DNA of 64,000 nucleotides, from assembly GCA_030748435.1 (NCBI GenBank), contig JASMLZ010000094.1, positions 1 through 64,000 of the forward strand. Reading direction: 5' to 3'. Below the pieces are notes generated by a model. That model was given only the letters and a program-made list of their open reading frames with translations. It made no database searches and had not been told where the DNA came from. Both the position numbers and the translations under genes were made by a program. Below, piece by piece: positions 5,429-61,208 of the stretch. Source of the stretch: Gammaproteobacteria bacterium (GTDB lineage Bacteria > Pseudomonadota > Gammaproteobacteria > Pseudomonadales > Balneatricaceae). Position 1 is the stretch's first letter; every line of letters starts with the position of its first letter.

Positions 5429-7247
<1,819 letters not shown>

Positions 7248-41381: not shown

Positions 41382-41454
41382 TTGACCCAAATACCGGGCC
41401 TTAGCTGCAATAAGTTGTTGGTAAGGCAATCACCATTAGCAGCACAGACAGTCC

Positions 41455-41500
41455 GGTCAGGAACGCTGACCAAGCCAACTTAACTAATCAATATAATGTG
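41455..41500. other. Intergenic hairpin and shared 13-mer
   Basis: GGTCAG-GAACG-CTGACC is a perfect hairpin (41455-41471). TCAATATAATGTG (41488-41500) is identical to 13 bases at the right end of the element in the cobalamin leader. The convergent gap 41382-41540 holds no gene. Confidence 0.4.
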
Positions 41501-44141: not shown

Positions 44142-44198
44142 TGCACCAATAAATAATCCTGTTTACCGGGTTTGGCGCCTCAACATGGCGTATTTAAC

Positions 44199-44217
44199 AA
44201 AGGCCGGGACGGCTTTT
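44199..44217 (+). terminator. Probable intrinsic terminator after the M24 peptidase gene
   Basis: GCCG-GGA-CGGC is followed by TTTT and preceded by an A-rich arm (AAAGG), so it can pair further. It lies 58 bp past the stop and before the cobalamin leader. Confidence 0.5.
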
Positions 44218-44255
44218 GCTATTATTATTTCCCCATTAGGCCTACAATGGCCCTC

Positions 44256-44641
44256 GTGAGATGTTCCACCCTGCGGTAGGGTGGTTAATGGGAAGCAAAA
44301 GCAACATTGCGGTGTACCGGTGTTGCTTAGCACACCAGCCACATTATATTGTTGAGTTCAGTGAGAGGCTTCAGCGTGCCTGGCAAGGCGCGTCTTGCCG
44401 CTAATGGTCATTCCCTTAGTAAAAGGCGCAACTTAGTCCAGGGGCGCTGAACCACTCACCCATAGGGCGTTGTTCTGGTGCCCCGCAGCCGCGTTACCGT
44501 GTTTGGCAAGGGAATGACCATTACCTGCACACGTCGCCTTGCTGCGCAACACCAGAACAACGCTGAATCCGTCAATATAATGTGGCTGGTGTGCGAGCAC
44601 TGCCCCCGCAACGGTTACCAAGTCCGATACCAGCACTCACA
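44256..44641 (+). promoter_or_regulatory. Cobalamin (B12) riboswitch with a large internal insertion
   Basis: The 5' half is recognisable. It has TGTTCC, the hairpin CCACCCT...AGGGTGG, then TTAATGGGAAGC (44284-44295), the usual TTAATaGGGAA block. The 3' half is textbook: GCACTGCCCCCGCAACGGT (44595-44616), then AGTCCGATACCAGC (the B12 box). GTGAG at 44257 can pair with CTCAC near 44637 to close the aptamer. Between the halves, where a short P5 hairpin should lie, are roughly 300 bp that include the inverted-repeat element. It precedes the cobalamin operon and should repress it when B12 is plentiful, if it still folds. Confidence 0.8.
44330..44594. repeat. 265-bp palindromic element with 22-bp terminal inverted repeats inside the riboswitch
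   Basis: 44330-44351 and 44573-44594 are exact reverse complements (22 bp). Inside are a perfect 16-bp pair (44402-44417 with 44508-44523), a perfect 14-bp pair (44467-44480 with 44550-44563) and a hairpin GGCAAG/CTTGCC (44382-44399). The 16- and 14-bp pairs interlock, so they cannot both form in a simple nested fold. There is no ORF, and I see no clear target-site duplication. A related end occurs at 7176-7205. It looks like a MITE-like or structured mobile element. Confidence 0.7.
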
Positions 44642-44654
44642 ACTAACACCATAT

Positions 44655-44671
44655 TCGCACGGCGGGTGCGA
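44655..44671 (+). promoter_or_regulatory. Hairpin after the B12 box, possible expression platform
   Basis: TCGCAC-GGCGG-GTGCGA forms a 6-bp stem just 3' of the aptamer. There is no T-tract. It could act in translational or transcriptional control of the first gene, whose start is about 100 bp downstream. Confidence 0.42.
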
Positions 44672-44775
44672 GAGGGTCTTACTTTGCTACATATTTCTTA
44701 CTGTAAAGCAATCGCTTTGCAGATTCAGGCCTCTGCGTCCCTGTGTATTTATAGCACCAGCGGGGGGCATGTCCT

Positions 44776-46446
44776 GTGAAACCAAATTTTCCATTTACGG
44801 CTGTGGTCGGCCAAGCACAAGTAAAACTGGCTTTGGTGCTATTGGCCATCGATCCGATAATAGGTGGTGTACTGGTCAGCGGCCCTCGTGGGAGCGCCAA
44901 ATCCACCCTCGCCCGTAGTCTGGCAGACCTGCCTATCAACGGTCTGCGACAGCTTATCACCTTGCCCTTGGGTAGCAGTGAAGAAATGGTTACCGGCACC
45001 CTTGATCTACAACAGGCCCTGGGCGAACAACAGGTGGCGTTTGCGCCTGGCCTATTGAGTAAAGCCCATCAAGGCTTACTCTATGTTGATGAAGTAAATC
45101 TGCTTCCCGACAGTCTGGTGGACCTGCTATTGGATGTGGCCGCCAGTGGTGTCAACCGCATTGAACGCGACGGTATTAGCCATGAGCACGCCGCCGAATT
45201 TGTGCTTATGGGAACCATGAATCCGGATGAGGGTGAACTCCGGCCACAACTCTTGGACCGTTTTGGCTTTGGGGTCGCACTGGCTAACCGCTACAGCGCT
45301 CAAGAACGGGTTGAAATTGTGCGCCGCAGGCAAGCCTTTGATAATGATCCACAGGCTTTTCTGGCTACCTATGCCGATGCACAGACTCACCTTGTAGAAC
45401 AGATACATCAGGCACAGGAACGACTGCACCAAGTAACCATCAGTGATCAGCTACGTTTGGCCATAGCCGAACATTGTGTTGCTGCACAAGTAGATGGTGT
45501 ACGCGGCGATCTGGTGTGGCTGCGCGCGGCCTGTGCTCATGCCGCCTGGCAACAGCGCCAAGAGGTGACTATGGATGATATTGATGCTGTAGCAGAGCTG
45601 GTGCTGATGCACCGCCGTCAACAGCCACCTAAAGCCTCTAGCCCCCCTGACAATAGTATGCCACCACCCCTGCAGCAACCACAGAATCAAGCCAAGCATA
45701 CAACGGCAGCTGATAGTGATTGGGGGCAGATGCAACCCCAAACTCAGCATACTGGTCAACTCAGCGCCCTTGATATGGGGTCTAACCCACATCAGCCCCA
45801 AACAGGCCCAGCTGGAGCCTGTTCCAGCCAAGGCAATTTATGGCACGGTAAAGGGCAGGCTACCCGCAACTGGAGCCAACGCATTAACTGGTTTGCCAGC
45901 CTGATAGCCGGGCGTGGTAGCAAACCTGAACTGCGTTACCGCCGTCAACAAGGCGCCGACCCGACCATGCATTTAGTATTGCTGGACACCTCCGCATCTA
46001 CCCTCTCCGGCCAAGGCCAAGCACAGGCTAAAGGTTTGGTAGCCGGTTTGGCCCAACAAGCCTATTTGGCGCGCCAGCACATGTTACTGCTGGGTTTTGG
46101 TAACGACAAGGTAGAGCCATTATTGGCTTTGGGCCGTGCCCCCAAAACCATGACATCATTATTGAACAGCATTGGCGCTGGTGGCGGCACGCCCCTTAGG
46201 CAGGCTCTGCAACAGGCCCAAGCCTGCGGCCAACAACTTCTGCGCCGCAACCCCACCACGCGCATTATTAATTACATTATTACCGATGGCCGCGTACAAC
46301 AGGATATAACGGGTCTGCACCTGCCTGGTATCAGCGTACTAGTCGATACAGAACAAAGCCAGATCAAGCGCGGTCGGGGGCAACATATTGCCCGTCATTT
46401 AAGCGCCGAATATTTTACTCTGGCCCAAGTACAACAATTTACCTAA
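44776..46446 (+). CDS. Fused ChlI/ChlD-type chelatase AAA+ and VWA subunit
   Basis: The 556-residue protein has an N-terminal AAA+ module (Walker A GPRGSAKST about 36-44, Walker B LLYVDEVNLLPD). A Pro/Gln-rich linker (about 290-360) and a C-terminal VWA domain with a MIDAS motif (LLDTSAST, GGGTPLRQAL) follow. This combines the BchI and BchD roles in one chain. Such proteins power CobN-type cobalt insertion where CobS/CobT are absent, which fits cobN downstream. The start is GTG, after GGGGG. It is the first gene of the operon. Confidence 0.82.
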   Translation: MKPNFPFTAVVGQAQVKLALVLLAIDPIIGGVLVSGPRGSAKSTLARSLADLPINGLRQLITLPLGSSEEMVTGTLDLQQALGEQQVAFAPGLLSKAHQGLLYVDEVNLLPDSLVDLLLDVAASGVNRIERDGISHEHAAEFVLMGTMNPDEGELRPQLLDRFGFGVALANRYSAQERVEIVRRRQAFDNDPQAFLATYADAQTHLVEQIHQAQERLHQVTISDQLRLAIAEHCVAAQVDGVRGDLVWLRAACAHAAWQQRQEVTMDDIDAVAELVLMHRRQQPPKASSPPDNSMPPPLQQPQNQAKHTTAADSDWGQMQPQTQHTGQLSALDMGSNPHQPQTGPAGACSSQGNLWHGKGQATRNWSQRINWFASLIAGRGSKPELRYRRQQGADPTMHLVLLDTSASTLSGQGQAQAKGLVAGLAQQAYLARQHMLLLGFGNDKVEPLLALGRAPKTMTSLLNSIGAGGGTPLRQALQQAQACGQQLLRRNPTTRIINYIITDGRVQQDITGLHLPGISVLVDTEQSQIKRGRGQHIARHLSAEYFTLAQVQQFT

Positions 46447-46455
46447 CGATTGCTT

Positions 46456-47049
46456 ATGACCACTAAAACACACGCACAACGTATGGCCGCTAAAAAGGCC
46501 GTTATTGACGCCCGCATAGCTAAAGCGACAGAAGAACGCGGTGTCGTTATTTTGCTACGCGGCAATGGTAAGGGTAAAAGTAGCTCTGCCTTTGGTACCC
46601 TTATGCGCAGCTTGGGTCATGGCAAAGCAGGTGCTGTAGTACAGTTTGTCAAAGGCCGTATTGCCACTGGTGAACACAAATTTTTCCAAACCCATACCAA
46701 CATTCCCTGGCATATTATGGGTCATGGCTTTACCTGGGAAACACAAGACAAAGGGCGTGATATTGCTGCCGCTGAACAAGCCTGGGAAATAACTCAAAAG
46801 CTGCTACAAGATGATAGTATCGATATGTTGGTGCTGGATGAAATGGCCTATATATTTAAGTACAACTACCTGCCCGTGGAACCGGTTATTGAAGCACTCA
46901 AACGGCGCCCAGCCAAGCAGACCGTGATTATAACTGGCCGGGTTATGCCTGATGCTCTGGTGGACTACGCCGACACAGTAAGCACGGTTAAAGATGATGG
47001 TCACGCTTTTCGCCGCGGCGTTAAAGCCCAAGCAGGGATAGAATACTAA
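46456..47049 (+). CDS. cobO: Cob(I)yrinic acid a,c-diamide adenosyltransferase CobO/BtuR
   Basis: I chose the ATG at 46456 (MTTKTHAQRMAAKK), giving 197 residues. The P-loop is LLRGNGKGKSSSAFGT. Family motifs include VVQFVKGRIATGE, DMLVLDEMAYIFKYNYL and TGRVMPDALVDYADTVS. It adds the upper 5'-deoxyadenosyl ligand from ATP to the corrinoid. It overlaps cobB at TAATG, so the two are coupled. Confidence 0.94.
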   Translation: MTTKTHAQRMAAKKAVIDARIAKATEERGVVILLRGNGKGKSSSAFGTLMRSLGHGKAGAVVQFVKGRIATGEHKFFQTHTNIPWHIMGHGFTWETQDKGRDIAAAEQAWEITQKLLQDDSIDMLVLDEMAYIFKYNYLPVEPVIEALKRRPAKQTVIITGRVMPDALVDYADTVSTVKDDGHAFRRGVKAQAGIEY

Positions 47050-48356
47050 TGTCGCAACCAACAACAGCCTTATGCCCAGCCTTATTTTTGGCTGCACCTG
47101 CCTCTGGACAGGGTAAAACCACTGTTACCGCCGCACTGGCCCGCTACCATCGCGATCAGGGCCGCAAGGTCAGGGTATTTAAAATGGGGCCGGATTATCT
47201 GGACCCCCAGATTCTGCAGCAAGCATCGGGCCAACCCGTCACCCAACTGGATCTATGGATGGCTGGGGCAGAATACTGCCGCCAGCAGTTTTATCTAGCC
47301 GCACAAACAGCTGACCTTATTCTGGTTGAAGGTGCCATGGGCATGTTTGATGGCGAACCATCCAGTGCTGATCTGGCAGCCACCTTTGGTATTCCCATTG
47401 CTTTGGTTATGGACGTTAAAGGTATGGCACAAACGGCCGCCGCCGTAGCCTTGGGACTAGCCAATTACCGCGATGATGTAGCCGTTGTTGGCTTGATTGC
47501 CAACCACTGTGGCACCGAACGCCATGCTCAACTGGTGCGTGATGCCTTGGGCGATCGTATGCCCCTGCTCGCCCATTTGGCGCGCGCTGAAGAAGTGGCT
47601 TTACCCGAGCGACATCTGGGTCTGGTGCAAGCCGAGGAAGTCAGTGAACAGCTGGAAGAAAAGTTTAATCTGGGCAAGGCCTGGTTAGGTGAACAAGCCA
47701 TATGTAACCTGCCAGCGCCAGTCGCCTTTGCCGATCAACATATTGCTGATCCGCAGCCACTGCTGGCAGGCAAACGCATTGGTATCGCCAAAGATCAGGC
47801 CTTTAGCTTTATCTATAGTGCCAATACTGGTCTACTGCAAGCTATGGGCGCTAAATTGCACTACTTCTCTCCCATGCATGATACCCAACTGCCTGAGGTA
47901 GATGCTTTATGGCTCCCTGGTGGCTACCCGGAATTACATGCGCAAAAGCTGGCGGCCAACCAAACTATGCGTCAGGCTGTGCAGACTTTCCATGCCTCCG
48001 GTAAAGCTATTTTGGCTGAGTGTGGCGGTTTTCTTTATTGTCTGGAGAGCCTGACTGATTTGCAACAAGATACCTGGCCAATGGCGTCTATCATGGCTGG
48101 CCAAGGCGCCATGCGCGGCAAACGTGGTTGTCAGGGTATGCAGCTGGCCCCCTTACCAGAAGGTGACATAAGAGGTCACGCACATCATCGTTCGCGTAGC
48201 CAGAATACCCCCGCACCCATAGCTCATGGTCGCCGCCAACGCCACTCGGCAGCGGGCGAAGCCATCTATCGTGAACAGGGGTTAACAGCCAGCTATTTGC
48301 ATTTATTTTTCCCCTCCAACCCGGTTGCCACAGCAGCCCTGTTTGGCGTCAAATAA
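47049..48356 (+). CDS. cobB: Cobyrinate / hydrogenobyrinate a,c-diamide synthase CobB (CbiA)
   Basis: The 435-residue protein has an N-terminal ATP-grasp-like dethiobiotin-synthetase fold (APASGQGKTTVTAALARYH) and DLILVEGAMGMFDG. The C-terminal class I amidotransferase domain has the catalytic Cys in ILAECGGFLYCLESL and a late SYLHLFFPSNP. It amidates the a and c carboxylates with glutamine. The family does both CbiA and CobB jobs, so the name does not settle whether cobalt is already bound. Confidence 0.92.
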   Translation: MSQPTTALCPALFLAAPASGQGKTTVTAALARYHRDQGRKVRVFKMGPDYLDPQILQQASGQPVTQLDLWMAGAEYCRQQFYLAAQTADLILVEGAMGMFDGEPSSADLAATFGIPIALVMDVKGMAQTAAAVALGLANYRDDVAVVGLIANHCGTERHAQLVRDALGDRMPLLAHLARAEEVALPERHLGLVQAEEVSEQLEEKFNLGKAWLGEQAICNLPAPVAFADQHIADPQPLLAGKRIGIAKDQAFSFIYSANTGLLQAMGAKLHYFSPMHDTQLPEVDALWLPGGYPELHAQKLAANQTMRQAVQTFHASGKAILAECGGFLYCLESLTDLQQDTWPMASIMAGQGAMRGKRGCQGMQLAPLPEGDIRGHAHHRSRSQNTPAPIAHGRRQRHSAAGEAIYREQGLTASYLHLFFPSNPVATAALFGVK

Positions 48357-48373
48357 CCAGCACAGACCAGATT

Positions 48374-49483
48374 ATGTGGCCCGAATCAAGTGAACAACAC
48401 CAGCCCCTACGCACCGGTTTAACCACCGGCACTTGCGCTACGGCCTGCTGCGTGGCCGCCGCTCACCTGTTACTGGCCCGGCAGATTTGTGAGCAGGCCA
48501 GTGTTACCTTGCCCAAGGGTCAAATTGTCGAGCTGGATATAGTCGATTTACAATGTTCCGACCAGATCGCCCATGCTGCTACTATCAAGGATGCTGGTGA
48601 TGATCCTGATGTTACCCATGGTGCTAAAGTATGGGTTAATTTGCGTCTGCTACCAACGACTGGGGTTACCTTTAACGCCGACCGAGGTGTCGGTACTGTT
48701 ACCCGTGCTGGTCTGGCCTTGGCCGTTGGTGAACCAGCCATCAATCCAGTACCCAGACAAATGATGCGCAGCAACCTGCAAGTTGTTGCCCAAAAATATA
48801 ACTACAAGGGTGGTTTTGCCGTCAGTATCGGCATTGATCAAGGTGCAGAACTGGCACTAAAAACCATGAATAGTCGTTTGGGTATTGTCGACGGGCTGTC
48901 CATATTAGGCACCAGCGGTATTGTCAGGCCCTTTTCCTGCAGTGCCTGGATCGCCTCTATTCATCGTGGTATGGATGTGGCACACGCCAATGGCTACGCT
49001 CATATTGCTGCCTCTACGGGCAATACCAGTGAAGCCTACGTGCAACAACACTACCAAATGGCCCCCATGCAACTGATCGAAATGGGTGACTTCGCCGGTG
49101 CCGTGCTGAAATACCTAAAGCAAGTACCTATTACCAAACTCACTCTTTGCGGTGGGTTTGGCAAACTAAGTAAACTGGCTAATGGCCATCTTGATTTGCA
49201 CTCCAGCCGCTCCAGCATTGATTTTGGGCAACTCCAAGAGCTGGCTCAACAGCAAGGCGCTCAGCCAGCACTACTAGACTACATAGGCCAGGCCAATACT
49301 AGTCTGCAAGCATTGCAGGCCTGCCAGACTGACGCTATTGATCTGGCTACCAGTGTTTGCTATGCCGCTTATCAGCAAGCTAGAAAACACCTTCCTGCCA
49401 GAGTAGAAGTAGAAATTATTGCTATCAATCAGCAAGGTGAACTGCTCAGCCAGTATCCACTGCTACCAGAGGGGGCGGCATGA
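48374..49483 (+). CDS. cbiD: Cobalt-precorrin-5B C1-methyltransferase CbiD
   Basis: The 369-residue protein has the hallmark N-terminus RTGLTTGTCATACCVAAAHLL. It also has DAGDDPDVTHGA, GVGTVTRAGLALAVGEPAINPVPRQM and STGNTSE. CbiD is the C1 methylase of the cobalt-early (anaerobic) route, replacing CobF. A cobF gene is not seen in this window. The end overlaps cobK (ATGA), giving coupled translation. Confidence 0.93.
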   Translation: MWPESSEQHQPLRTGLTTGTCATACCVAAAHLLLARQICEQASVTLPKGQIVELDIVDLQCSDQIAHAATIKDAGDDPDVTHGAKVWVNLRLLPTTGVTFNADRGVGTVTRAGLALAVGEPAINPVPRQMMRSNLQVVAQKYNYKGGFAVSIGIDQGAELALKTMNSRLGIVDGLSILGTSGIVRPFSCSAWIASIHRGMDVAHANGYAHIAASTGNTSEAYVQQHYQMAPMQLIEMGDFAGAVLKYLKQVPITKLTLCGGFGKLSKLANGHLDLHSSRSSIDFGQLQELAQQQGAQPALLDYIGQANTSLQALQACQTDAIDLATSVCYAAYQQARKHLPARVEVEIIAINQQGELLSQYPLLPEGAA

Positions 49484-50238
49484 ACCTGTTGCTATTGGGT
49501 GGCACCGCCGATGCCCGCAAAATATGTGCATTGCTGCATAGCCAATACCCTTATGCTCAACTGATCTATAGCGTGGCCGGTCTGGTGCGTCTACCCCAGG
49601 TGCCGGCGCAAGTAATCAGCGGGGGCTTTCGTCAATTTGGCGGCTTAAACCAATATTGCCAAACCCATAATATTCACGCCATCATTGATGCTACCCACCC
49701 CTTTACGACAACTATGGGCGCCAGTGCACGCACCAGCGCACAAGCTCTGGCCATACCCTACTGGCGTTTTTTACGCCCGGCCTGGCAACCACAAACAGAT
49801 GACCGTTGGCACAGCTTTAACAACCGTCAAGATCTGTTACAGGCCATACAGGGCTACCAGCGCATACTGCTTACCCTGGGGCAAGTCAGTGTTCAGGAGT
49901 TAGGCCAATTGGACCGGGTACCACAGGTTTGGCTGCGCACCGCAGCCCAGCCTCAGATCAATCTGCCGCAACATGTAAAGTGGCTTAAGGCCATCGGCCC
50001 CTTTGCCTTGGCCAATGAGCAAGCTTTGCTGCAGCAACACCGAATTCAGGCTCTGGCTTGTAAAAATAGTGGTGGTGATGCCACCAGTGCCAAATTAACC
50101 GCAGCCCGAGAGCAGGGATTACCTGTATATATGCTGCAACGCCCCCGCCAAGAAGGGGTAGCATACTCGGCGTTTGCCCAATTATTAAACCAGATTGACA
50201 TCTGGCAACAGAGATGGATGGCCCAACCGGCCTCTTGA
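49480..50238 (+). CDS. cobK: Precorrin-6x reductase CobK/CbiJ
   Basis: The 252-residue protein opens with NLLLLGGTADARKICALL, the family nucleotide-binding start. It has AIIDATHPFTTTMGASARTSAQ, PYWRFLRPAW, and the C-terminal LACKNSGGDATSAKLTAARE. It reduces the macrocycle of (cobalt-)precorrin-6A to 6B with a pyridine nucleotide. It sits between cbiD and cbiX. Confidence 0.92.
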   Translation: MNLLLLGGTADARKICALLHSQYPYAQLIYSVAGLVRLPQVPAQVISGGFRQFGGLNQYCQTHNIHAIIDATHPFTTTMGASARTSAQALAIPYWRFLRPAWQPQTDDRWHSFNNRQDLLQAIQGYQRILLTLGQVSVQELGQLDRVPQVWLRTAAQPQINLPQHVKWLKAIGPFALANEQALLQQHRIQALACKNSGGDATSAKLTAAREQGLPVYMLQRPRQEGVAYSAFAQLLNQIDIWQQRWMAQPAS

Positions 50239-50247
50239 GGAAAAACT

Positions 50248-51222
50248 ATGAGCAATGAAAAACCCGCCATTTTATTCGTTGGCCACGGTTCTCGCGATGT
50301 AGAAGCAGTAAACGAATTTTACCAACTGGCTGAGAATTTTAAACAGCGCTTTCCTGAGCGTATGGTAGAAACCGGCTTTCTAGAATTTGTGCGCCCCATT
50401 ATCGCCGACGCCGTGCAAAAACTGATTGACCAGGGTGCTACCAAAATCCATGCCGTACCTGGTATGTTGATGATTGGTGCCCACGCCAAAAATGATATCC
50501 CCAGCGAATTAAACAATCTGCAGTTACAGCATGGCATCAAAATCGAATATGGTGCCGAGCTAGGCATTGATGCCAAGATGCTGCAGGCGGCCCGTGACCG
50601 CATTGAAGAAGCCGAAGCAACTATTGCCAATTACGATGCAAGCAAAGATCGTCGCGATACTCTGCTAGTGATTGTCGGACGTGGTGCCACTGACCCAGAC
50701 GCCAATTCCAATATCAGCAAAATTACCCGCTTTCTGGAAGAGGGCATGGGCTTTGGCTGGTCAGCTACAGCCTATAGCGGTGTTGCTGACCCGCTGGTAC
50801 CAGCGGCTCTGGAACGCACCAAAGGTTTGGGCTTTAAACGCGTGATTGTGGCACCTTACTTCCTGTTTACCGGGCGTTTGGTAAAACGTATTTATCAGGC
50901 TGCTGATGAATTTGCCACCGCCAATCCTGATATTGAAGTAGTCAAGGCACCCTATCTGAACGCCCATGAAAAAGTGATTGACACCTTTGTTGAGCGCCTC
51001 GATCAAATTAGTAGTGGTGATGCCAAGATGAACTGTCAGCTATGCCAATATCGAGTGCAGATTATTGGTGTGGAACACAAGGTTGGTCAGCCTCAGGAAG
51101 GCCACCATCACCATGTGCAAGGTATTGGTACCGATGCGGACCACCATCACGACCACCATCACCATCACCATCATCACCATGATCACCAGCACGGTCATCA
51201 CCACCATGACGATGACCAATAG
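50248..51222 (+). CDS. cbiX: Sirohydrochlorin cobaltochelatase CbiX, long form with His-rich tail
   Basis: The 324-residue protein has two chelatase-fold halves. The first begins ILFVGHGSRDVEAVNEF with a metal-binding His; the second has LVIVGRGATDPDANSNIS and APYFLFTGRLVKRIYQ. The C-terminus has MNCQLC, the MxCxxC iron-sulfur motif known from long CbiX proteins. A tail of about 40 residues there is more than half histidine. It inserts cobalt early, into sirohydrochlorin. The operon also encodes CobN, a late chelatase. The His tail probably buffers cobalt. Confidence 0.93.
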   Translation: MSNEKPAILFVGHGSRDVEAVNEFYQLAENFKQRFPERMVETGFLEFVRPIIADAVQKLIDQGATKIHAVPGMLMIGAHAKNDIPSELNNLQLQHGIKIEYGAELGIDAKMLQAARDRIEEAEATIANYDASKDRRDTLLVIVGRGATDPDANSNISKITRFLEEGMGFGWSATAYSGVADPLVPAALERTKGLGFKRVIVAPYFLFTGRLVKRIYQAADEFATANPDIEVVKAPYLNAHEKVIDTFVERLDQISSGDAKMNCQLCQYRVQIIGVEHKVGQPQEGHHHHVQGIGTDADHHHDHHHHHHHHHDHQHGHHHHDDDQ

Positions 51223-51224
51223 CC

Positions 51225-51866
51225 ATGCATTACGATTATAACCCTGATCCACAGGGCATAGAGCAGGAGAGCTTCCGCCAGATCCGTGAGCTCACTAAAC
51301 TTGATGCTTATGACCGCGACAGCCAACAAGTAGTCATGCGTGTGGTACATAGTCTGGGTGAACCGGGTGTGGCACAATCCATGCGGCTTAGCAGTGGCGC
51401 CTGCGCGGCAGGCCGCAGCGCTTTGGCCAATGGCAGCGCCATCCTGTGTGACGTGGAAATGGTCAAACAAGGCATTACCAAACGTATGCTGACAAGGGAA
51501 CCTTTGTGCTACCTGAATCATGCCCACACAGCTGAACTGGCGCAACAAGCAGGTGAGACGCGTTCTATGGCCGCTTTACAGCTATGGGGCAATGATTTGG
51601 CTGGCAGCGTGGTAGTCATTGGCAATGCCCCTACAGCCTTATTCCGTCTGCTGGAAATGATCCGGCAGGGGGCCTGCAAACCGGCTTTGATCGTCGGCAT
51701 ACCCGTAGGTTTTGTAGGTGCGGCTGAGTCAAAGCAAGCATTATGGGATGCCTATCAGCAGCTCGGCCTGCAGTGTATTACCCTGCTGGGTCGCCAGGGC
51801 GGCAGTGCCGCCGCCGCTGCAGTTGTCAATGCCTTACTACGCTGCAATCTGGGTGAGTATTACTAA
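51225..51866 (+). CDS. cobH: Precorrin-8x methylmutase CobH/CbiC
   Basis: The 213-residue protein has the catalytic histidine in RVVHSLGEPG (about 43-48), GSAILCDVEMVKQGITKRML, GNAPTALFRLLEMI and IVGIPVGFVGAAESKQAL. It moves the C11 methyl group to C12, giving (cobalt-)hydrogenobyrinate or cobyrinate. Only 2 bp separate it from cbiX, and its stop overlaps the cobL start (TAATG). Confidence 0.93.
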   Translation: MHYDYNPDPQGIEQESFRQIRELTKLDAYDRDSQQVVMRVVHSLGEPGVAQSMRLSSGACAAGRSALANGSAILCDVEMVKQGITKRMLTREPLCYLNHAHTAELAQQAGETRSMAALQLWGNDLAGSVVVIGNAPTALFRLLEMIRQGACKPALIVGIPVGFVGAAESKQALWDAYQQLGLQCITLLGRQGGSAAAAAVVNALLRCNLGEYY

Positions 51867-53119
51867 TGTTAAACATCAGCGTTATCGGCCTAGGCATCCA
51901 CCAGCCACCCGTATTAACAACCACCGCCCAACAAGCGCTGGGGCAAGCTCAAGCAGTATTTGGCTCAGCCCGCCAACTGGCCAGTGTGGCGCACTTATTA
52001 GCCACTGACTGTGAGCCCTGCGAACTACCCAAGCTAACCCAATTGGCCCAGCAATTACAGCCTTACCAACAGGTAGTAATACTGGCCTCCGGTGATCCCT
52101 TGCTGTTCGGTATTGGCAAGTTTTTGCAACAGGAATTCCCCCAGCAGGTCACTTGTTACAGTGGCATATCCAGCCTGCAGGGTGCTTGCCAGTTGACTGG
52201 CCTATCCTTGCAGGATGCTCAGTTGGTGAGCCTGCACGGACGGCCATTAAACAGCCTGCGGCGCCACCTGCAGCCTAATCGCCAACTATTGGTTCTTACC
52301 GACCAGCACAGTCAACCCCAACATCTGGCGCAACAGCTGGCTGATGTCAATCTGGGCGCTTCGCGCCTGCATGTGTGCGAACGTCTGGGCTATGCTGACC
52401 AACGCTATCGGCAGTTTAGTGTGCAACAGTTGCTGGCCCATGATCTGACATTCGATGCTTTGCATGTGAGTGTGATCGAAACCCGTGGCCCAGGCGGCAT
52501 TATCCCCAACTTCCCGGGTATCCCGGACCACGAGTTTATTACCGACGGTGTTTCTGTTACGGGCAGAGGCGCTGGCCACGGACTGTTAACCAAGCGTGAA
52601 GTACGTTTGGCCATCCTGTCTTTATTGCAAGCCGGCCCGGATCAGATAGGCTGGGATATTGGTGCCGGCTGTGGTGGCGTCGCTGTCGAATGGGCCTTAT
52701 GGAACCCTAAGGGTCAAGTCTATGCTATTGAGCACCACCAACAACGCTTTGACTGCCTGCAGGCCAATAGGGACAAATTCGGTGTAGGACAAAATCTCTA
52801 TGCTGTTCAGCAAACCGCACCACAGGGGCTAAGTGACTTGCCCAGCCCCGATAAAGTATTTGTTGGTGGCAGCAGTGGCGCCCTGAACGCAATTATGCTC
52901 GCTGCCTGGCAGGCCTTACGCCCCGGTGGTCGCCTGCTAGCCAGTGCGGTAACAGAACAAAGCAAAGCCACCTTATTGCAGTTTGGTAATCAAGTAGGCT
53001 GCGATATAGCTGAACTGTTACAAGTCAGTGTTAGCCGCGCCGATAAATTAGCCGGCCACGACCTGTTGCGGCCAAATTTGCCTATTACTCTTATTTGTTG
53101 GGACAAGCCCCATGAGTAA
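51866..53119 (+). CDS. cobL: Precorrin-6Y C5,15-methyltransferase CobL (CbiE-CbiT fusion)
   Basis: The 417-residue protein has a CbiE-type tetrapyrrole methylase (residues 1 to about 205; SVIGLGIHQPP, LASGDPLLFGIGKFL) fused to a CbiT-type class I methyltransferase (about 225-417; GWDIGAGCGGVAVEWAL, VFVGGSSGALNAIM). It methylates C5 and C15 and decarboxylates the ring-C acetate. The fusion is standard for proteobacterial CobL. It overlaps cobI by 8 bp. Confidence 0.93.
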   Translation: MLNISVIGLGIHQPPVLTTTAQQALGQAQAVFGSARQLASVAHLLATDCEPCELPKLTQLAQQLQPYQQVVILASGDPLLFGIGKFLQQEFPQQVTCYSGISSLQGACQLTGLSLQDAQLVSLHGRPLNSLRRHLQPNRQLLVLTDQHSQPQHLAQQLADVNLGASRLHVCERLGYADQRYRQFSVQQLLAHDLTFDALHVSVIETRGPGGIIPNFPGIPDHEFITDGVSVTGRGAGHGLLTKREVRLAILSLLQAGPDQIGWDIGAGCGGVAVEWALWNPKGQVYAIEHHQQRFDCLQANRDKFGVGQNLYAVQQTAPQGLSDLPSPDKVFVGGSSGALNAIMLAAWQALRPGGRLLASAVTEQSKATLLQFGNQVGCDIAELLQVSVSRADKLAGHDLLRPNLPITLICWDKPHE

Positions 53120-53855
53120 CTCAAATCACAGCTATAAAGCCAAAAAGGCCACTTTTTATGGTGCCGGTGTTGGCCCGGGTGATCCCCTGCTACTGACCAT
53201 AAAAACCCACCAGCTAATACAGACAGCCGATGTGATCAGCTACCTGGCCAGCACGGATGGTCATTCTCAGGCCCGGGATATTGCGCGCCACAGCCTGGCA
53301 TCCCGCACTAGTGACGCTGAAGAAGTGGTCGTCACCATGCCTATGAGCACCGACCGCAGTCAGGCCAATTGTGCTTATGATGCTGCTGCACAACAACTGC
53401 AGAAACATTTGCAGGCTGGCAAATCAGTCGTATTCCTGTGTGAAGGCGATCCCTTGTTTTTTGGTTCCTTCAGCTATCTGCTGCAACGCCTAAGTGATGA
53501 TTTTAGCTGTCAGGTGGTGCCCGGGATTGCCTCAGTCAATGCCGCATCCGCTGCTCTGCAGCAACCACTAACCTTGTTACAGGAGTCCTTTGCTGTGGTC
53601 AGTGGCCGTCATACGGATCAACAAATCGAAAATACCTTGCAGCAACATGACAGTGTGGTGATTATGAAAGCCGGTCTGGCCCGCCCGCGCATACTGGCTT
53701 TGCTACGCAAAACCGGCCGCTGGGCTGATGGTCATTATCTGGAATATATCGGTCGCGACAACCAGCGACTGGTGGCCAATCTGGATGAACTGGAAGACCA
53801 GACTGGGCCTTATTTTTCTTTATTTGTTATTCTACGGGGGGAGCGTCCGGCATGA
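53112..53855 (+). CDS. cobI: Precorrin-2 C20-methyltransferase CobI/CbiL
   Basis: This is a 247-residue tetrapyrrole methylase. The SAM-site signatures are YGAGVGPGDPLLLTIK (about 14-29) and VVFLCEGDPLFFGSFSYL. CQVVPGIASVNAASAAL also matches the CobI/CbiL subgroup. It places the C20 methyl group on precorrin-2 or its cobalt form. It overlaps cbiG by 4 bp (ATGA). Confidence 0.92.
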   Translation: MSNSNHSYKAKKATFYGAGVGPGDPLLLTIKTHQLIQTADVISYLASTDGHSQARDIARHSLASRTSDAEEVVVTMPMSTDRSQANCAYDAAAQQLQKHLQAGKSVVFLCEGDPLFFGSFSYLLQRLSDDFSCQVVPGIASVNAASAALQQPLTLLQESFAVVSGRHTDQQIENTLQQHDSVVIMKAGLARPRILALLRKTGRWADGHYLEYIGRDNQRLVANLDELEDQTGPYFSLFVILRGERPA

Positions 53856-54649
53856 TTCGTATCTTTGCTCTTACTGACGCAGGTGCCACCTTGGGTAGGC
53901 GCCTGCAGCAGCATCTACAAACGGCTGCACAAGACGTGATATTGGCAGTGCGCCCGCCAGAATTTGCCGCAGCGGTACAAACGGCCTTTGAGCATGGCGA
54001 ACGTTTAATACTGATCTGTGCCACAGGCATTGCCGTACGCACTCTGGCCCCGGTTTTAGTGGATAAATACCGCGACCCAGCCGTATTAGTGCTGGATGAA
54101 CAAGGTGAGTTTGTTATTCCCCTGCTTTCTGGCCATGAAGGCGGTGCCAATGAGTGGGGTCGTCAGGTCAGCGAACTATTATCAGCACAACTGGTAATGA
54201 CCACTGCCAAACCCTATCTACAACCTGTTTACACAGTTGGCATGGGCTGTGAACGCCACTGTGACACTGCCCACCTACAAGCCCTGCTGCAACAATGCCT
54301 GACCCAACAGGGCCTGAGCATGGCTGATATTGTCAGTATTAACAGTATCGACATTAAAGCTGACGAGGTGGGTTTGATCGAGCTGGCGCAAAGTCAGCAG
54401 AAACTGTTCCAGACCTTTAGTGCCGAGCAGTTGGCTGGGGTAAATGACCAGTTACAAACACCATCGCAATACGTTTATAACACTGTTGGTGTCTATGGGG
54501 TAGCAGAGTCCGCTGCCCTATGGGCCGCCCAGCAGGCCACCCAAGCCAAAGCCGAACTGGTGCTGGCTAAACAAAAGACAACCAAGGCAACCTGTGCCAT
54601 TGCCCGAGCCTACCCGCCCGGCTCCGGCAGTACAGGTATGCTGGATTAA
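53852..54649 (+). CDS. cbiG: Cobalt-precorrin-5A hydrolase CbiG (short form)
   Basis: The 265-residue protein has a CbiG N-terminal domain (LILICATGIAVRTLAPVLVDKYRDPAVLVLDEQGEFVIPLLSGHEGGAN) and a C-terminal CobE/CbiG domain (YTVGMGCERHC, IVSINSIDIKADEVGL, VYGVAESAAL). The usual middle domain is missing; full CbiG proteins are often about 330-350 residues. CbiG opens the ring-A lactone and releases acetaldehyde in the cobalt-early route. It belongs with CbiD and CbiX here. Confidence 0.88.
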   Translation: MIRIFALTDAGATLGRRLQQHLQTAAQDVILAVRPPEFAAAVQTAFEHGERLILICATGIAVRTLAPVLVDKYRDPAVLVLDEQGEFVIPLLSGHEGGANEWGRQVSELLSAQLVMTTAKPYLQPVYTVGMGCERHCDTAHLQALLQQCLTQQGLSMADIVSINSIDIKADEVGLIELAQSQQKLFQTFSAEQLAGVNDQLQTPSQYVYNTVGVYGVAESAALWAAQQATQAKAELVLAKQKTTKATCAIARAYPPGSGSTGMLD

Positions 54650-54667
54650 TTAATACGAGAGCAAAAC

Positions 54668-55444
54668 ATGAGTAAATTATTTGTTGTAAGTACTGGCCCC
54701 GGCGACAGTCAGTTGGTAGCACCCCGTGCTCAGACTGCCATTGCCGCCAGCACAGATCTGGTAGCCTACGGCTTGTACCTGCAAATACTGGGAGATATTT
54801 GTCATGGTAAAAATCACCATGACCTGCCTCTGGGGGAAGAAATCGGCCGTGCCCGTTTGGCTCTGGATTTGGCTGCCAGTGGCAAAACCACGGCCCTAAT
54901 TTCCAGTGGAGATATTGGCATCTATGCCATGGCCACACTGGTATTTGAACTATTGGACAGGCAATTACAGGGCAAAGAAAACCAGCCTCAGTGGCTGGAT
55001 GTAGAAATTGAGGTAATACCCGGCATCTCCGCCATGCAAGCTGGTGCCAGCCGAGTCGGCGCCATGTTGGGCCACGATTTCTGCACTATCTCATTGTCAG
55101 ACCTGCTGACACCTTGGCAGACCATCCTCAAGCGTATCGAAAAAGCCGGTGAAGGTGATTTTGTGGTGTCTTTCTATAACCCGGTTTCCAGAAAGCGTGA
55201 CTGGCAACTAAACACCGCCCGCGATCTGCTTCTTAAGCACCGGCCTGCATCCACACCCGTATTGCTGGGGCGTCAGCTGACCCGCCCGGACGAGAACATA
55301 AACATTATTCGTCTGGATCAACTGGATGCTAAAGATGTGGATATGTTTACTCTGGTATCCGTGGGTAACAGTGAATCACGCCATATAATTAATGGTAACA
55401 AAGAGTGGGTTTACACCCCCCGCGGTTACCGGAAAAAGCTCTAA
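54668..55444 (+). CDS. cobJ: Precorrin-3B C17-methyltransferase CobJ/CbiH
   Basis: The 258-residue tetrapyrrole methylase begins LFVVSTGPGDSQLVAPRAQ, and TALISSGDIGIYAMATLVFELL is the family's second SAM loop. It also has VIPGISAMQAGASRVGAMLGHDF, SFYNPVSRKRDWQL and VLLGRQLTRPDENI, all CobJ/CbiH marks. It methylates C17 and contracts the ring. In the cobalt-early route this needs no CobG, and cobG is not seen here. Confidence 0.93.
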   Translation: MSKLFVVSTGPGDSQLVAPRAQTAIAASTDLVAYGLYLQILGDICHGKNHHDLPLGEEIGRARLALDLAASGKTTALISSGDIGIYAMATLVFELLDRQLQGKENQPQWLDVEIEVIPGISAMQAGASRVGAMLGHDFCTISLSDLLTPWQTILKRIEKAGEGDFVVSFYNPVSRKRDWQLNTARDLLLKHRPASTPVLLGRQLTRPDENINIIRLDQLDAKDVDMFTLVSVGNSESRHIINGNKEWVYTPRGYRKKL

Positions 55445-55455
55445 AAGGAACACTT

Positions 55456-56232
55456 ATGACCGTTTATTTTATTGGTGCCGGCCCGGGCGACCCAGAATTA
55501 ATGACCATTAAAGGCCAGCGTTTATTGGACACCGCACCTGTGGTGTTGTTTGCCGGCTCTTTGATCCCGCAAGAGAATATGGCCAAGGCCCGTTCGCGCG
55601 GCGCTTTAGTGGTGGATACTGCCCCTTTGGCACTGGATGCCATTGTTGACTATATACACAAGGCCCATAAGCAGGGCCAGGATGTGGCTCGCCTGCACTC
55701 TGGCGACCCCATGCTGTATGGCGCCATTGGCGAACAAATTCGTCGTCTGGACGAACTGGATATTGATTATGAAGTGATTCCCGGTGTTATGGCTACCTCG
55801 GCATCGGCAGCCTGGTTAGGCAAGGAACTCACCCTCTCCGGCATTTCACAAACCGTTATTCTAACCCGTTATGAAGGCAAAACGCCCTTTCCAGAGCGGG
55901 AGCGTCTACCGGCTCTGGCAGCTACTGGCGCCACCTTGGCTATCCATTTGGGTATCACGCGTATTCACAAGATTATCGCCGACCTGTTACCTTTCTATGG
56001 GGCAGACTGCCCGGTGGCAGTCTGCTATCGCACTAGCTGGCCCGATCAGGACAAGGTGGTTGGCACCCTCGGTGATATTGTGGCAAAAGTCAGAGCCAAA
56101 AAGTTTACCCGCACAGCGCTGGTTATTGTTGGCCACGTACTGGATGCAGACAACTTTGATGACTCTTACCTGTATGACGCCGATCAGACACATATTTATC
56201 GTGACAAAGACCACTCCAAAAAGGCGAACTAA
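55456..56232 (+). CDS. cobM: Precorrin-4 C11-methyltransferase CobM/CbiF
   Basis: I prefer the ATG at 55456 (MTVYFIGAGPGDPELMTIKG), preceded by AAGGAA; the track's start overlaps cobJ. That gives 258 residues. Signatures are VVLFAGSLIPQENM, ARLHSGDPMLYGAIGEQI and VIPGVMATSASAAWLGKELTL. It methylates C11 of (cobalt-)precorrin-4. It lies 2 bp before cobW. Confidence 0.94.
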   Translation: MTVYFIGAGPGDPELMTIKGQRLLDTAPVVLFAGSLIPQENMAKARSRGALVVDTAPLALDAIVDYIHKAHKQGQDVARLHSGDPMLYGAIGEQIRRLDELDIDYEVIPGVMATSASAAWLGKELTLSGISQTVILTRYEGKTPFPERERLPALAATGATLAIHLGITRIHKIIADLLPFYGADCPVAVCYRTSWPDQDKVVGTLGDIVAKVRAKKFTRTALVIVGHVLDADNFDDSYLYDADQTHIYRDKDHSKKAN

Positions 56233-56234
56233 GC

Positions 56235-57323
56235 ATGCAACTTAATAAGATCCCCGCTACCGTCGTCACCGGCTTTTTAGGCAGTGGCAAAACCACCTTG
56301 CTGGCCAATATTATGCGTCAGGCACAAGGCAAACGTATTGCCGTTATTGTCAACGAATTTGGTGAACTGGATATCGACGCCGACCTACTGCGCAACTGCC
56401 CCCTCGACTGTGACGACGACACTCAGACTAAAGGCACGCAACAGGGTATCTACGAGCTGGCTAACGGCTGTATTTGCTGCACCGTGGAAGAAGAGTTTCT
56501 GCCGGTTATGCAGGAACTGGTAAAACGTCGTAATGATATTGATCATATCCTTATTGAAACCAGCGGTCTGGCCCTGCCCAAACCACTGGTGCAAGCCTTT
56601 AACTGGCCTGATATTAAGCAACACTGCACTGTCGATGCGGTGATCACCGTTATTGATGGCCCCGCCGTTGCCGCTGGCCGCTTTGCCCATGATGCTGAAC
56701 AGGTGCAACAACAACGTTTGGCCGATGACAGCCTCAATCATGATCCTGATTTAGCTGAATTACTCGACGACCAGCTAAGTGCAGCAGATTTAGTATTGGT
56801 TGCCAAAAGTGACCTGCTGGATACTGAACAACGCAGCACAGTGGAACAAGTGGTTAGTAACAAGGTACCAGCAGCAGTAAAAACAGCCTATATAGGGCAA
56901 ACCGCCAATGGCCAAAGCGATGCTAATCTGGAGCTGGTTATGGGTTTACAGGCCGCCGCCGAAGAACGCATTAACCATGTACACACCCACCACGATCATC
57001 ACCATGACCATGACCATGAGCACGAACATGCTCACGATCATTTTGACTCCTGTGTAATTAACCTTGGGGAGGTTGATGGTAAGCAGTTGCAAAGCATCCT
57101 GCAGGACCTGTTAGCCCAATACCCCATCTACCGTTGTAAAGGTTTTGCTGCCCTGCCTGGCAAACCCATGCGGCAGGTCTTACAAGCGGTTGGCCAACGT
57201 TTAGAAAGCCATTTTGACCGTCTTTGGCAGACCCATGAACAACGCGGCACCAGTCTGGTATTTATTGGCAAACAGATCAATGCCAAAACCCTGACTGCCG
57301 CCCTGAGCAACGCAGAAGTATAA
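56235..57323 (+). CDS. cobW: CobW GTPase / metal chaperone
   Basis: This is a 362-residue G3E GTPase with Walker A GFLGSGKTTL (about 14-23), the metal-binding CxCC motif GCICCTVEEEF, and VVAKSDLL (NKxD-like). The linker is His-rich (HVHTHHDHHHDHDHEHEH, about 255-272). A CobW C-terminal domain follows. CobW is thought to deliver cobalt, consistent with its place directly before cobN (12-bp gap). The His run could bind cobalt or zinc. Confidence 0.93.
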   Translation: MQLNKIPATVVTGFLGSGKTTLLANIMRQAQGKRIAVIVNEFGELDIDADLLRNCPLDCDDDTQTKGTQQGIYELANGCICCTVEEEFLPVMQELVKRRNDIDHILIETSGLALPKPLVQAFNWPDIKQHCTVDAVITVIDGPAVAAGRFAHDAEQVQQQRLADDSLNHDPDLAELLDDQLSAADLVLVAKSDLLDTEQRSTVEQVVSNKVPAAVKTAYIGQTANGQSDANLELVMGLQAAAEERINHVHTHHDHHHDHDHEHEHAHDHFDSCVINLGEVDGKQLQSILQDLLAQYPIYRCKGFAALPGKPMRQVLQAVGQRLESHFDRLWQTHEQRGTSLVFIGKQINAKTLTAALSNAEV

Positions 57324-57335
57324 AGAAGTTTAATT

Positions 57336-60300
57336 ATGCACCTACTGGCAGCACAACCCGGCGGTTTCGTCGAGGAAGAAGGCATCATCGATCTGGGTCA
57401 GGACCCGGCGCGCATGGTGATGCTGGCAGCTGCCGAGACCAGTCTGGCCATGCTGGCTGACGCCGCGGAACACTTGGCTGACGAACTACCCAGTCTGCGG
57501 TTGGCCAACTGGAGCCACCTGCTAAAACCAGCCGCCTATGACCTGTATGAAGATAAGGTTCTGGCCCAGACACAACTGGTGCTGGTCTCCATGCTAGGTG
57601 GTGCCAGCTATTGGCAATATGGCTTTGAGCGCTTGCAGGCCTGGCAACAGGCCAAACCGGGCCGCCACCTGATTCTGGTGCCCGGTGACGATACCCCCGA
57701 CCCACAATTGGCCGCCGCCAGCAATGTCAGTGCTGACAGTTATAGCAGACTTTGGGCCTATCTGCGCCATGGTGGAGTGAGTAATGGTATTAGCTTGCTG
57801 CGTTATTGCCAGCAACAACTCTTGCAACCCAGCTTGCCAGATACCTGGCACGAGCCCTGTACCTTGCCCCAAGCCTTACTCTACCTGCCAGGCCAAAGCC
57901 AAGCCAGCCTCAGCGACTGGCGCCAGCAGGCACAAGCCAAGGGTATCTCTGGTAAAGCCCCCAGTGTTATTTTGCTGTTTTATCGCAGCCACCTGCAAAG
58001 TGGTAATACGGGCATGTTTGACGGCCTTCTGCAGTGCCTTGAGCAGGCTGGGTTAAACCCTCTGGCTTTGGCTATTACATCGCTTAAAGATCCAACTGCC
58101 AAAGCCTTGCTTAACCATACCATCGAACAGGTCGGTGCCAGTTTGGTAATCAGCAGTCTGGGGTTCGCTAATAATCGCGTTGACGCACCGGATTTAAGCT
58201 CAGCGCCAAGCCATTACCAACTGCCTATCGACAAGGCCATACCGGTACTGCAGCTAGTACTTAGTTCTACTACTCGAGAGGCTTGGCAAGAATTTAAGCA
58301 AGGCTTGCGCTCCAGAGACATTGCCATGCAGGTGGTGTTACCGGAAATGGATGGCAATATACTCACCCGAGCTATTAGCTTTCGCTGCATGGATGAACGT
58401 CTGGAACGTACGCAAATCAGCCTAACCCGATATGTACTGGAGCCCGAGCGGGCAGCTTTTGTGGCGCAACTGGCATGGCGCTACTGCCACCTGCAGAGCC
58501 AGCCCAATCAGCATAAACGCATTGCCCTGGTACTAGCCAACTATCCCACTAAAGACGGCCGCATTGGCAATGGTGTGGGTCTGGATACACCCGCCTCGGC
58601 AGTCAATATATTGCGCGCTCTGGCCCAGTCTGGCTACCCCATTGCCGATATTCCCAAAGACGGTACCAGCTTAATTAAAGCACTACTGCAAGCGGTAACC
58701 AATAACCCCAATACCCTGCATCATTTACCCTGCTGGCAAAGCCTGAGCGTGGATGACTATATGTACCACTTCCAGCACTTGCCAGAAACCAATCAGCAGC
58801 AGATCTGGCAACGCTGGGGAGCACCGCAACAGGACCCCAAATATCGTCAGGGCCGCTTAATGATTGCCGGTATTCGGCTAGGCGAAACCTTTGTCGGTAT
58901 TCAGCCAGCACGGGGTTATAATTTGGACCTAAGTGCCAATTACCATGACCCAGATCTGGTGCCTCCCCACAGCTATCTGGCCTTTTATTTTTGGCTGCGC
59001 CACACCTATCAGGTAGAAGCCTTTATTCATGTCGGTAAACACGGTAATCTGGAATGGCTGCCCGGCAAAGGCGTGGCCCTATCAGATACCTGTTACCCAG
59101 ATATGATACTCGGCCCCATGCCACACTTTTATCCATTTATTGTTAATGATCCGGGTGAAGGTGCACAAGCCAAACGGCGCACACAAGCAGTGATTATCGA
59201 CCATCTAATGCCGCCCATGGCCCGTGCTGAAGCCTATGGAGATATGGCTGCACTGGAGTTGCTGGTGGACGAGCTATATCAAGCCACAGGGCTGGATCAA
59301 GGCCGCGAACAATGGCTACGCCAACAGATTGTTAGCAAACTCGCCAGTAGCCACCTGCAGCAAGAGTTGGGACTTACGACTGATAGTGACGAAGATACCT
59401 TGTTAGCGCAACTGGATGCCTACCTATGCGATATTAAAGAGTCCCAGATTCGCAATGGCCTGCATATTCTGGGACAACTACCAGAGGCGGCAGAATTGGC
59501 CGAAACACTAGTGGCACTGCTACGCTTGCCAAGAGGCGAACAACCCCATGAACAGGGCATCTTGCACAACCTGAGTAATGACTTTGGCCTGCACGGTTAT
59601 GATCCCCTGGAGAGCAAAGTCGCGCCCTGGCAGGGGCCACGACCGGCACCTCTGCTAGCCATAACAGATGCCCCATGGCGCACCAATATGGATACTCGCG
59701 AGCGTCTCGAATTAATGGCCTTACAGATAGTAAGTGAACACCTACTGGGGGATGCTGACATAGCCAGCATAGCTGCCAGCTTACCAGCCACCAGTCAACA
59801 ACTGCAGTACGCCAAACAAGTATTAATGAGCGCCTTAAACACCAGTGCCGAGCAGGAAATTCAAGCTCTGATACAGGGCCTTGGAGGCCGGTCAGTCGCC
59901 CCCGGGCCCAGTGGTGCACCGACTCGTGGTCGACTGGACACCCTACCCACAGGGCGTAACTTTTTCTCTTTAGACAACCGCTCTGTGCCCTCACCTGCAG
60001 CTTGGGCTTTGGGCCAGCTGTCAGCACAAGCACTGATTGAACGACACTTGCAAGAACACGGTGATTTTCCCCAACAGCTGGGCCTCTCTGTATGGGGTAC
60101 GGCCACCATGCGCACCGGTGGTGATGATATTGCCCAGGCCTTTGCCCTGATGGGCATTAAGCCAATCTGGGCGCCCGGATCCCAGCGGGTGATCGATTTT
60201 GAGATTATCCCGGCTATGCAATTGGCGCGTCCGCGAGTCGATGTCACCCTGCGTGTATCCGGTTTTTTCCGTGACGCCTTCCCTAATGTAATGAAGCTTT

Positions 60301-61208
60301 ATGATGCTGCAGTCACGGCCTTGGCTAACTATGATGAACCCGGCACCAGCAATACTATTCGCGCACATATTGAAAGCCGGCAGCAAGCGTTGGAAAACAC
60401 TGGCCTAAGTGCAGAACAGGCTCGGCGCCAAGCCTCCTATCGCGTTTATGGCAGTAAGCCTGGGGCTTATGGGGCTGGTCTGCAGGGCTTGATTGATGAA
60501 CGCTGTTGGCAAGAACGTAAGGATTTGGCAGAAGCCTATATTAACTGGGGTGGCTATGCCTATGGTAACTGGGGGGGTAATTGGGGGAGCGGTAACGGCA
60601 GTGATAACGATAACCAGCACCAAGCTGATGGTATCGCTGCCCACAGTGATTTCCAGCACCGCTTGAGCCAACTGCAAGCGGTGGTACAAAATCAGGATAA
60701 CCGCGAACACGACCTGCTGGACTCAGACGACTACTATCAATTTCAGGGCGGCATGGCCAATGCCGTAAGCCAATTCAGTGGCACTGCACCAGCCATTTAT
60801 CATAGTGACCACAGCAACCCCACGGCGCCCAAAACCCGGACCCTAAAAGAAGAGCTTAACCGAGTATTGCGCGCCCGAGTGCTAAACCCAAAATGGATCG
60901 GGGCCATGCAACGCCATGGCTATAAGGGTGCCTTTGAAATGGCAGCCAGTGTGGATTATTTATTTGCTTATGACGCCACCACTGATCTGATTGATGACTA
61001 TCAATATAAACAGGTTAGTGAAGCTTTAATCTTTAACCCACAAAATCAGCAATTCCTGCTTCAACATAATCCCGCAGCACTGGAAGAAATGGCCGAGCGA
61101 ATGCTGGAGGCCTGCCAGCGCAATATGTGGCAGCAGCCAGGCGAACAAGCTGATAAACTTCAAGATCTACTACTGCATATGGACCAGCAACAGGAACAGG
61201 GCCAATGA
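57336..61208 (+). CDS. cobN: Cobaltochelatase large subunit CobN
   Basis: This 1290-residue CobN/BchH-family protein has [24 protein letters not shown] (about 395-420). The conserved [20 protein letters not shown] is near 570, [17 protein letters not shown] near 970, and [25 protein letters not shown] near 1115. It inserts cobalt into hydrogenobyrinate a,c-diamide with ATP-driven AAA+ partners, here presumably the ChlI/D-type protein at the operon start. A Gly/Asn/Trp-rich insert ([15 protein letters not shown]) near 1080 is unusual. The end overlaps cobQ. Confidence 0.95.

Follow-up and report, generated by a model that had tools for sequence, protein, structure and literature searches.

Does a cobalamin (B12) riboswitch still work once a mobile element has entered its aptamer? 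The question is posed by the leader of a 16-gene cobalamin operon on the plus strand of a 64,000-nt stretch of DNA (hereafter the window), in which a 263-bp element (44331–44593) splits the aptamer into halves at about 44256–44330 and 44594–44640. The finding rests on one draft genome. An earlier note, made from the letters of the window, had recognised the two conserved aptamer blocks, and they lie where it put them (TGTTCC...TTAATGGGAAGC, 44262–44296; GCACTGCCCCCGCAACGG...AGTCCGATACC, 44597–44631).

The split leader and its sisters

Corresponding leaders stand before the same chelatase gene in 12 of 14 sister genomes. Eleven of them score above the Rfam threshold, while the twelfth, in G009, was matched by a covariance model that we built from the other 11 (the sister model). 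In the sister alignment, P2, P4 and P5 are backed by two-sided paired changes in several columns. The interrupted leader shares with RF00174 and env8-type switches the conserved blocks, P4, P5 with its L5, the B12 box, a P13-like hairpin and the type of operon; the core residues of RF00174 and helices P1–P6 with the B12 box are all present, the helices being backed by paired changes.

Whereas the sister leaders reach the RF00174 threshold, the split leader, its P5 interrupted by a 263-nt mobile element, goes unrecognised by Rfam. The Cobalamin model (RF00174) has no match over its gathering score anywhere in the window, and in 44150–44800 it is absent at E-values up to 10, the sole listing there being a weak match of the 3' half to AdoCbl-II. 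The sister model matches the two halves only (44256–44384, 50.2 bits; 44520–44643, 18.0 bits). The split leader is a descendant of RF00174 members, not a member that the model recognises. The earlier note had allowed that the insert might prove a conserved part of sister leaders, or that a compact aptamer might lie elsewhere in the region; the element is absent from all 12 sister leaders, and covariance-model searches with Rfam and with the sister model found no compact aptamer elsewhere in the window.

The same genome carries two uninterrupted cobalamin riboswitches at other loci (L049, 1501–1702, minus strand, 105.9 bits; L050, 1501–1673, plus strand, 63 bits). The G009 riboswitch (L043, 3237–3391, minus strand) has its own, independent insertion of some 20 nt (ATACGGGGGTTACATAGCCTCT) between P4 and TTAATGGG; it is missed by Rfam and scores 123.6 bits with the sister model.

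The remaining parts of the leader are in place on both sides (Table 1), and transcription would probably start near 44256. A predicted leader ORF separates the P13 hairpin from the chelatase gene in the window as in L037 and L038, and a peptide pattern (...TLL.....ALQ..ASA...) is shared by the window, G005 and G006; most of the remaining sisters have the L13 motif directly 5' of the gene's ATG. The operon continues after its putative cobaltochelatase/ChlI-D gene with CobA, CobB, CbiD and precorrin-6A reductase.

Table 1. Positions of leader, element and operon features in the window
Feature	Position	Strand	Support
Probable native −10 box, TACAAT	44243–44248	+	GCCTACAAT kept in 11/11 aligned sister leaders
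Aptamer 5' half: P1/P2 5' strands, P4 hairpin (44266–44284), TTAATGGGAAGC, L5 hairpin	44256–44326	+	Sister alignments, sister covariance model
Original L5 hairpin of P5, whole, AAGCAACA...TGTTGCTT	44299–44328	+	Base-paired changes across sisters
Left target duplication, TTAG	44327–44330	+	CTAG in empty site of G005; CTAG flanks of other copies
MITE, 263 bp, CACACC...GGTGTG, strongly self-folding	44331–44593		Three more full-length copies and fragments in genome; minimum free energy far below shuffles
Left arm, perfect terminal inverted repeat (22 bp counting adjoining base 44330)	44331–44351	+	All pairs probability 1.0
Internal inverted repeat I2, arms 44383–44417 and 44508–44542	44383–44542		
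Internal inverted repeat I3, arms 44467–44489 and 44541–44563, interlocked with I2	44467–44563		
Right arm, perfect terminal inverted repeat (22 bp counting adjoining base 44594)	44573–44593	+	All pairs probability 1.0
Right target duplication, CGAG	44594–44597	+	CTAG in empty site of G005; CTAG flanks of other copies
Aptamer 3' half with B12 box; preceding G44597 is the first base of GCACTGCCCCCGCAACGG	44598–44640	+	Conserved residues identical in all sisters
P13-like expression-platform hairpin, TCGCAC-GGCGG-GTGCGA	44655–44671	+	Same in G005, conserved in sisters
Predicted leader ORF: TTG start, AGAGGG ahead, TGA overlapping the next gene's GTG	44684–44779	+	Frame and part of peptide kept in G005, G006
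Cobalamin operon, 16 intact ORFs	44776–63633	+	First gene a putative cobaltochelatase/ChlI-D protein

The inserted element and its empty site

The inserted element is a MITE, that is, a short non-autonomous transposable element. At 263 bp it is too short for a transposase gene; it is non-coding, bounded by terminal inverted repeats, dispersed in several copies and flanked by a target-site duplication, and a relative retains the empty site. The exact 22-bp inverted ends (44330–44351/44573–44594) and the two interlocking inverted repeats described in the earlier note are confirmed, the ends being nested in 32-nt arms that are 88% complementary. Its length of 265 bp has to be corrected, as the mobile unit measures 263 bp with a 4-bp duplication on each side and the larger figure had taken in a duplicated base at each end. 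An 18-base end motif occurs three times in the window (at most 3 mismatches) against 0.08 expected, and the minimum free energy of the element is −141.6 kcal/mol, compared with −85.7 ± 5.2 kcal/mol for 200 dinucleotide shuffles.

That the element is a MITE with further copies in the genome had been missed before. Three of these copies are full-length (255–263 bp, 89–91% identity to the query); the partial or miniature ones number more than ten. When aligned, the copies end in TACACC...GGTGTA and adjoin CTAG tetranucleotides; most copies with readable ends retain an intact CTAG on one side or both. In G005, the closest sister genome, the same place reads GTGTTGC-CTAG-CACTGCCCCC, with the single CTAG of an empty site. 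Since CTAG stands beside other copies and is empty in G005, it is CTAG (or the TA within it) that is duplicated on insertion, and each of the two duplicates here appears to have changed by one base since then.

The element enters the 3' strand of P5 after the L5 hairpin and ahead of the basal GC/GC pairs (44295–44296 with 44597–44598), in a part of P5 that is an internal loop in G005. Given this position, the element is a second arm hung on P5 and not a replacement of it. The earlier wording, that the element "replaced or entered" P5, is therefore right in its second half, in view of the empty CTAG in the 3' strand of P5 in G005, and wrong in its first, the L5 hairpin being whole.

Full copies are confined to the source species: neither the other 14 species of the genus nor the rest of 116 family genomes yielded one, and the only matches outside the source genome in that family-wide set were inner-core stretches of 50–64 bases in two other genera. 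Palindromic repeats at L101–L104 (G062, G061, G104) share 50–64 inner-core bases and have apparently different ends (GGGAACCTGCGAA...), which hints that modular structured repeats of this kind form a broader group extending to other genera of the family. Within the source genome, miniature versions of about 46–59 bp (L012, L014, L021, L066, L068) carry TACACC...GGTGTA ends beside CTAG, suggesting a modular element family in which even very small derivatives were mobile. Two degenerate fragments of the element lie elsewhere in the window (7149–7205, plus strand; 41422–41500, minus strand). A search for the end motif in GTDB genomes, from which the source organism's records were possibly excluded, gave three single matches in unrelated organisms, at about chance level. 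As for a partner transposase, the two families tried, DDE_3 and DDE_Tnp_1, have no gene in the source genome, and a partner may be gone; an identified autonomous partner is usual for a MITE, but MITE status does not require one.

Folding, conservation and the fate of the switch

With its two ends pairing perfectly over more than 20 bp, the element would fold upon itself as a side arm. In a partition function of the whole leader, every terminal-repeat pair of the element has a probability of 1.0, and the mean pairing probabilities of P1, P2 and P4 are 1.00, 0.88 and 0.99; the pairing of P1 and P2 says little on its own, as random inserts of the same length usually permit it too. The folding cost was taken as the free energy needed to impose P1, P2, P3 and P4 jointly with the L5 hairpin and the base of P5, in a calculation that leaves out tertiary contacts, ligand and co-transcriptional order. 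This native core costs 5.43 kcal/mol with the element and 3.32 with the flanks joined, a penalty of 2.1 kcal/mol over the insert-free leader, whereas random 263-nt pieces of the window raise the cost to 9.8 ± 2.7 kcal/mol (minimum 5.73, about 100 draws). Full-length sibling copies swapped into the P5 site give the same 5.43, so the low cost is a property of the paired ends and not a special adaptation of the riboswitch copy. With unmutated CTAG duplicates the cost is 7.23 kcal/mol, and when single changes were tried in each duplicate, the actual pair ranked among the best 23 of 144, which is suggestive only. From the paired ends and these costs, P5 has plausibly become a three-way junction, in which the basal GC/GC pairs, the original L5 hairpin and the MITE arm would meet, and P1–P4, the B12-box half and the P13 hairpin could still assemble.

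Conservation points in the same direction. All 69 residues that are invariant among the 11 sister leaders are kept in the split halves, and the P13-like hairpin is unchanged relative to G005. The riboswitch copy of the element, on the other hand, has 11 private substitutions in 263 positions (4.2%), and the target duplicates have 2 changes in 8. At 4.2%, about 2.9 changes would be expected in 69 sites, and the Poisson chance of none is about 0.055 if the changes postdate the insertion. In the riboswitch copy, 5 of 6 private changes at paired columns maintain or re-create a pair, T1–A263 to C–G among them, against 5 of 14 in the sibling copies (one-sided Fisher about 0.07), with a consensus structure that includes the riboswitch copy itself. 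These statistics are weak (about 0.05–0.07), and they tend to favour an RNA that is folded and under constraint. Perfect pairing of the ends was also considered as proof of selection on the RNA and was rejected, the sibling copy L003 being perfect over 21 bp as well.

Alternatively, the insertion may have broken the switch. Its halves would then misfold or be cut apart, the operon would be constitutive or permanently low, and the conserved blocks would be the undecayed relics of a young event. The unconstrained calculation gives this reading some substance: in the lowest-energy fold the L5-hairpin strand pairs instead with the B12-box strand, and the L5 hairpin itself drops to a probability of 0.35 with the element, from 0.93 with joined flanks. 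Moreover, the insertion is specific to the source species and so may be recent, and the two other intact cobalamin riboswitches of the genome could preserve B12 sensing for other genes. It has to be reconciled, however, with a native-fold penalty lower than with any random insert tried, with an intact P13 hairpin and intact operon ORFs, and with a pattern of change in which both duplicates have mutated and the element has gained its private substitutions, yet none of the 69 invariant aptamer residues has changed. We consider a broken switch possible but rather doubtful, and retained regulation would seem likelier than loss.

An outward promoter in the element, from which the operon would be transcribed while bypassing the aptamer, has a parallel in the Correia elements of Neisseria, which are able to create promoters at their ends (PMC2649163). 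The right end of the element does contain TATAAT (44576–44581), but no good −35 hexamer precedes it and a sigma-70 scan of 44150–44800 returned 0 sites against 0.5 expected, which makes this explanation very improbable. An assembly artefact, with repeat copies misjoined inside the leader, might be suspected of a repeated element in a draft genome of 108 contigs, and is scarcely credible when the other copies differ from the riboswitch copy at 7–11% of sites, leaving no long identical stretch to invite a misjoin, and when the flanks, with both duplicates present, meet precisely at the CTAG which in G005 has no insert.

With insertion, anatomy and conservation established, the explanation that we favour, and regard as probable when taken as a whole, is that a MITE entered a cobalamin riboswitch at a CTAG in the 3' strand of its P5 and duplicated that CTAG, and that the switch would remain foldable and B12-regulated. 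The conserved native promoter would yield a transcript carrying the element inside the aptamer, in which the end stem would set the element apart as a self-folding side arm. In env8, the ligand causes L5 to dock on the L13 hairpin, which hides the ribosome binding site (PMC10907184); this behaviour, together with the preservation of L5 and P13, suggests the same translational control here. By analogy with homologous switches, B12 binding would dock L5 on P13 and thereby repress translation of the leader ORF and the operon. The best matches in L5–L13 complementarity fall on the P13 stem strand.

The genome has a gene for RNase III, and this enzyme may, more speculatively, cut the long stem and leave a two-piece aptamer held by a stub, as 23S rRNA intervening sequences and Correia elements might lead one to expect. 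For the more specific picture, a working B12 riboswitch with a complete MITE as its P5 arm, possibly cut by RNase III into two pieces, and with paired ends that made the insertion nearly neutral for folding, we see the chances as evenly balanced. The earlier proposal that the aptamer could fold around the insert gains support from folding energies and conservation.

Precedents and meaning

MITEs are already known, as are cobalamin riboswitches and stem-forming inserts in structured RNAs, and the closest precedents are two. The first is the intervening sequences (IVS) of 23S rRNA, such as that in helix 45 of Coxiella, for which excision by RNase III has been shown (PMC4990558); cleavage by RNase III has a further precedent in Correia elements (PMC2649163). 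The element and an IVS are both selfish sequences whose ends pair and which lodge in a peripheral helix of a structured RNA, with similar stem length and folding energy; the element's complementary ends lie in P5, with a stem pairing probability of 1.0. The host RNA of an IVS is, however, ribosomal and not a regulatory mRNA leader, its excision is demonstrated where ours is speculative, and the IVS replaced a tetraloop whereas the MITE added a side arm. The second precedent, and the nearest published case in the literature searched, is the pneumococcal trp leader, where a BOX element lies between two T-box riboswitches and RNA-seq suggests that regulation still works (PMC3049150). There too a small structured repeat sits in a riboswitch leader, although between two riboswitches and not, as here, inside one aptamer. 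In the light of the BOX case, the earlier note's "new for a riboswitch" was somewhat overstated; we found no report of a MITE or transposon inside a single aptamer in a literature search of incomplete coverage, with few subscription papers.

As a mobile element, the insert resembles the Correia/NEMIS, RUP and BOX MITEs (PMC2229807; PMC10969869) in being non-coding and multicopy, with terminal inverted repeats, a target duplication and strongly folded transcripts, and differs from them in its ends, its CTAG target and the restriction of full copies to the source species. The leader ORF has a counterpart in the ppe2 B12 riboswitch of M. tuberculosis, whose translated uORF overlaps the next gene through AUGA (PMC11260477). 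Both ORFs lie between a B12 switch and a gene with a stop/start overlap, although the one here is only predicted and no insertion is described in the ppe2 aptamer.

Interrupted aptamers escape covariance-model surveys, as illustrated by the blank Rfam result here and by the smaller insertion in a sister species that Rfam also misses. If the switch is broken, the locus would be a clear example from nature of a B12 operon that lost its regulation to a MITE. If it works, a ligand-binding RNA domain can survive the entry of a transposable element whose ends pair, which would provide an mRNA counterpart of rRNA intervening sequences and a possible way for riboswitches and other structured RNAs to acquire new peripheral arms.
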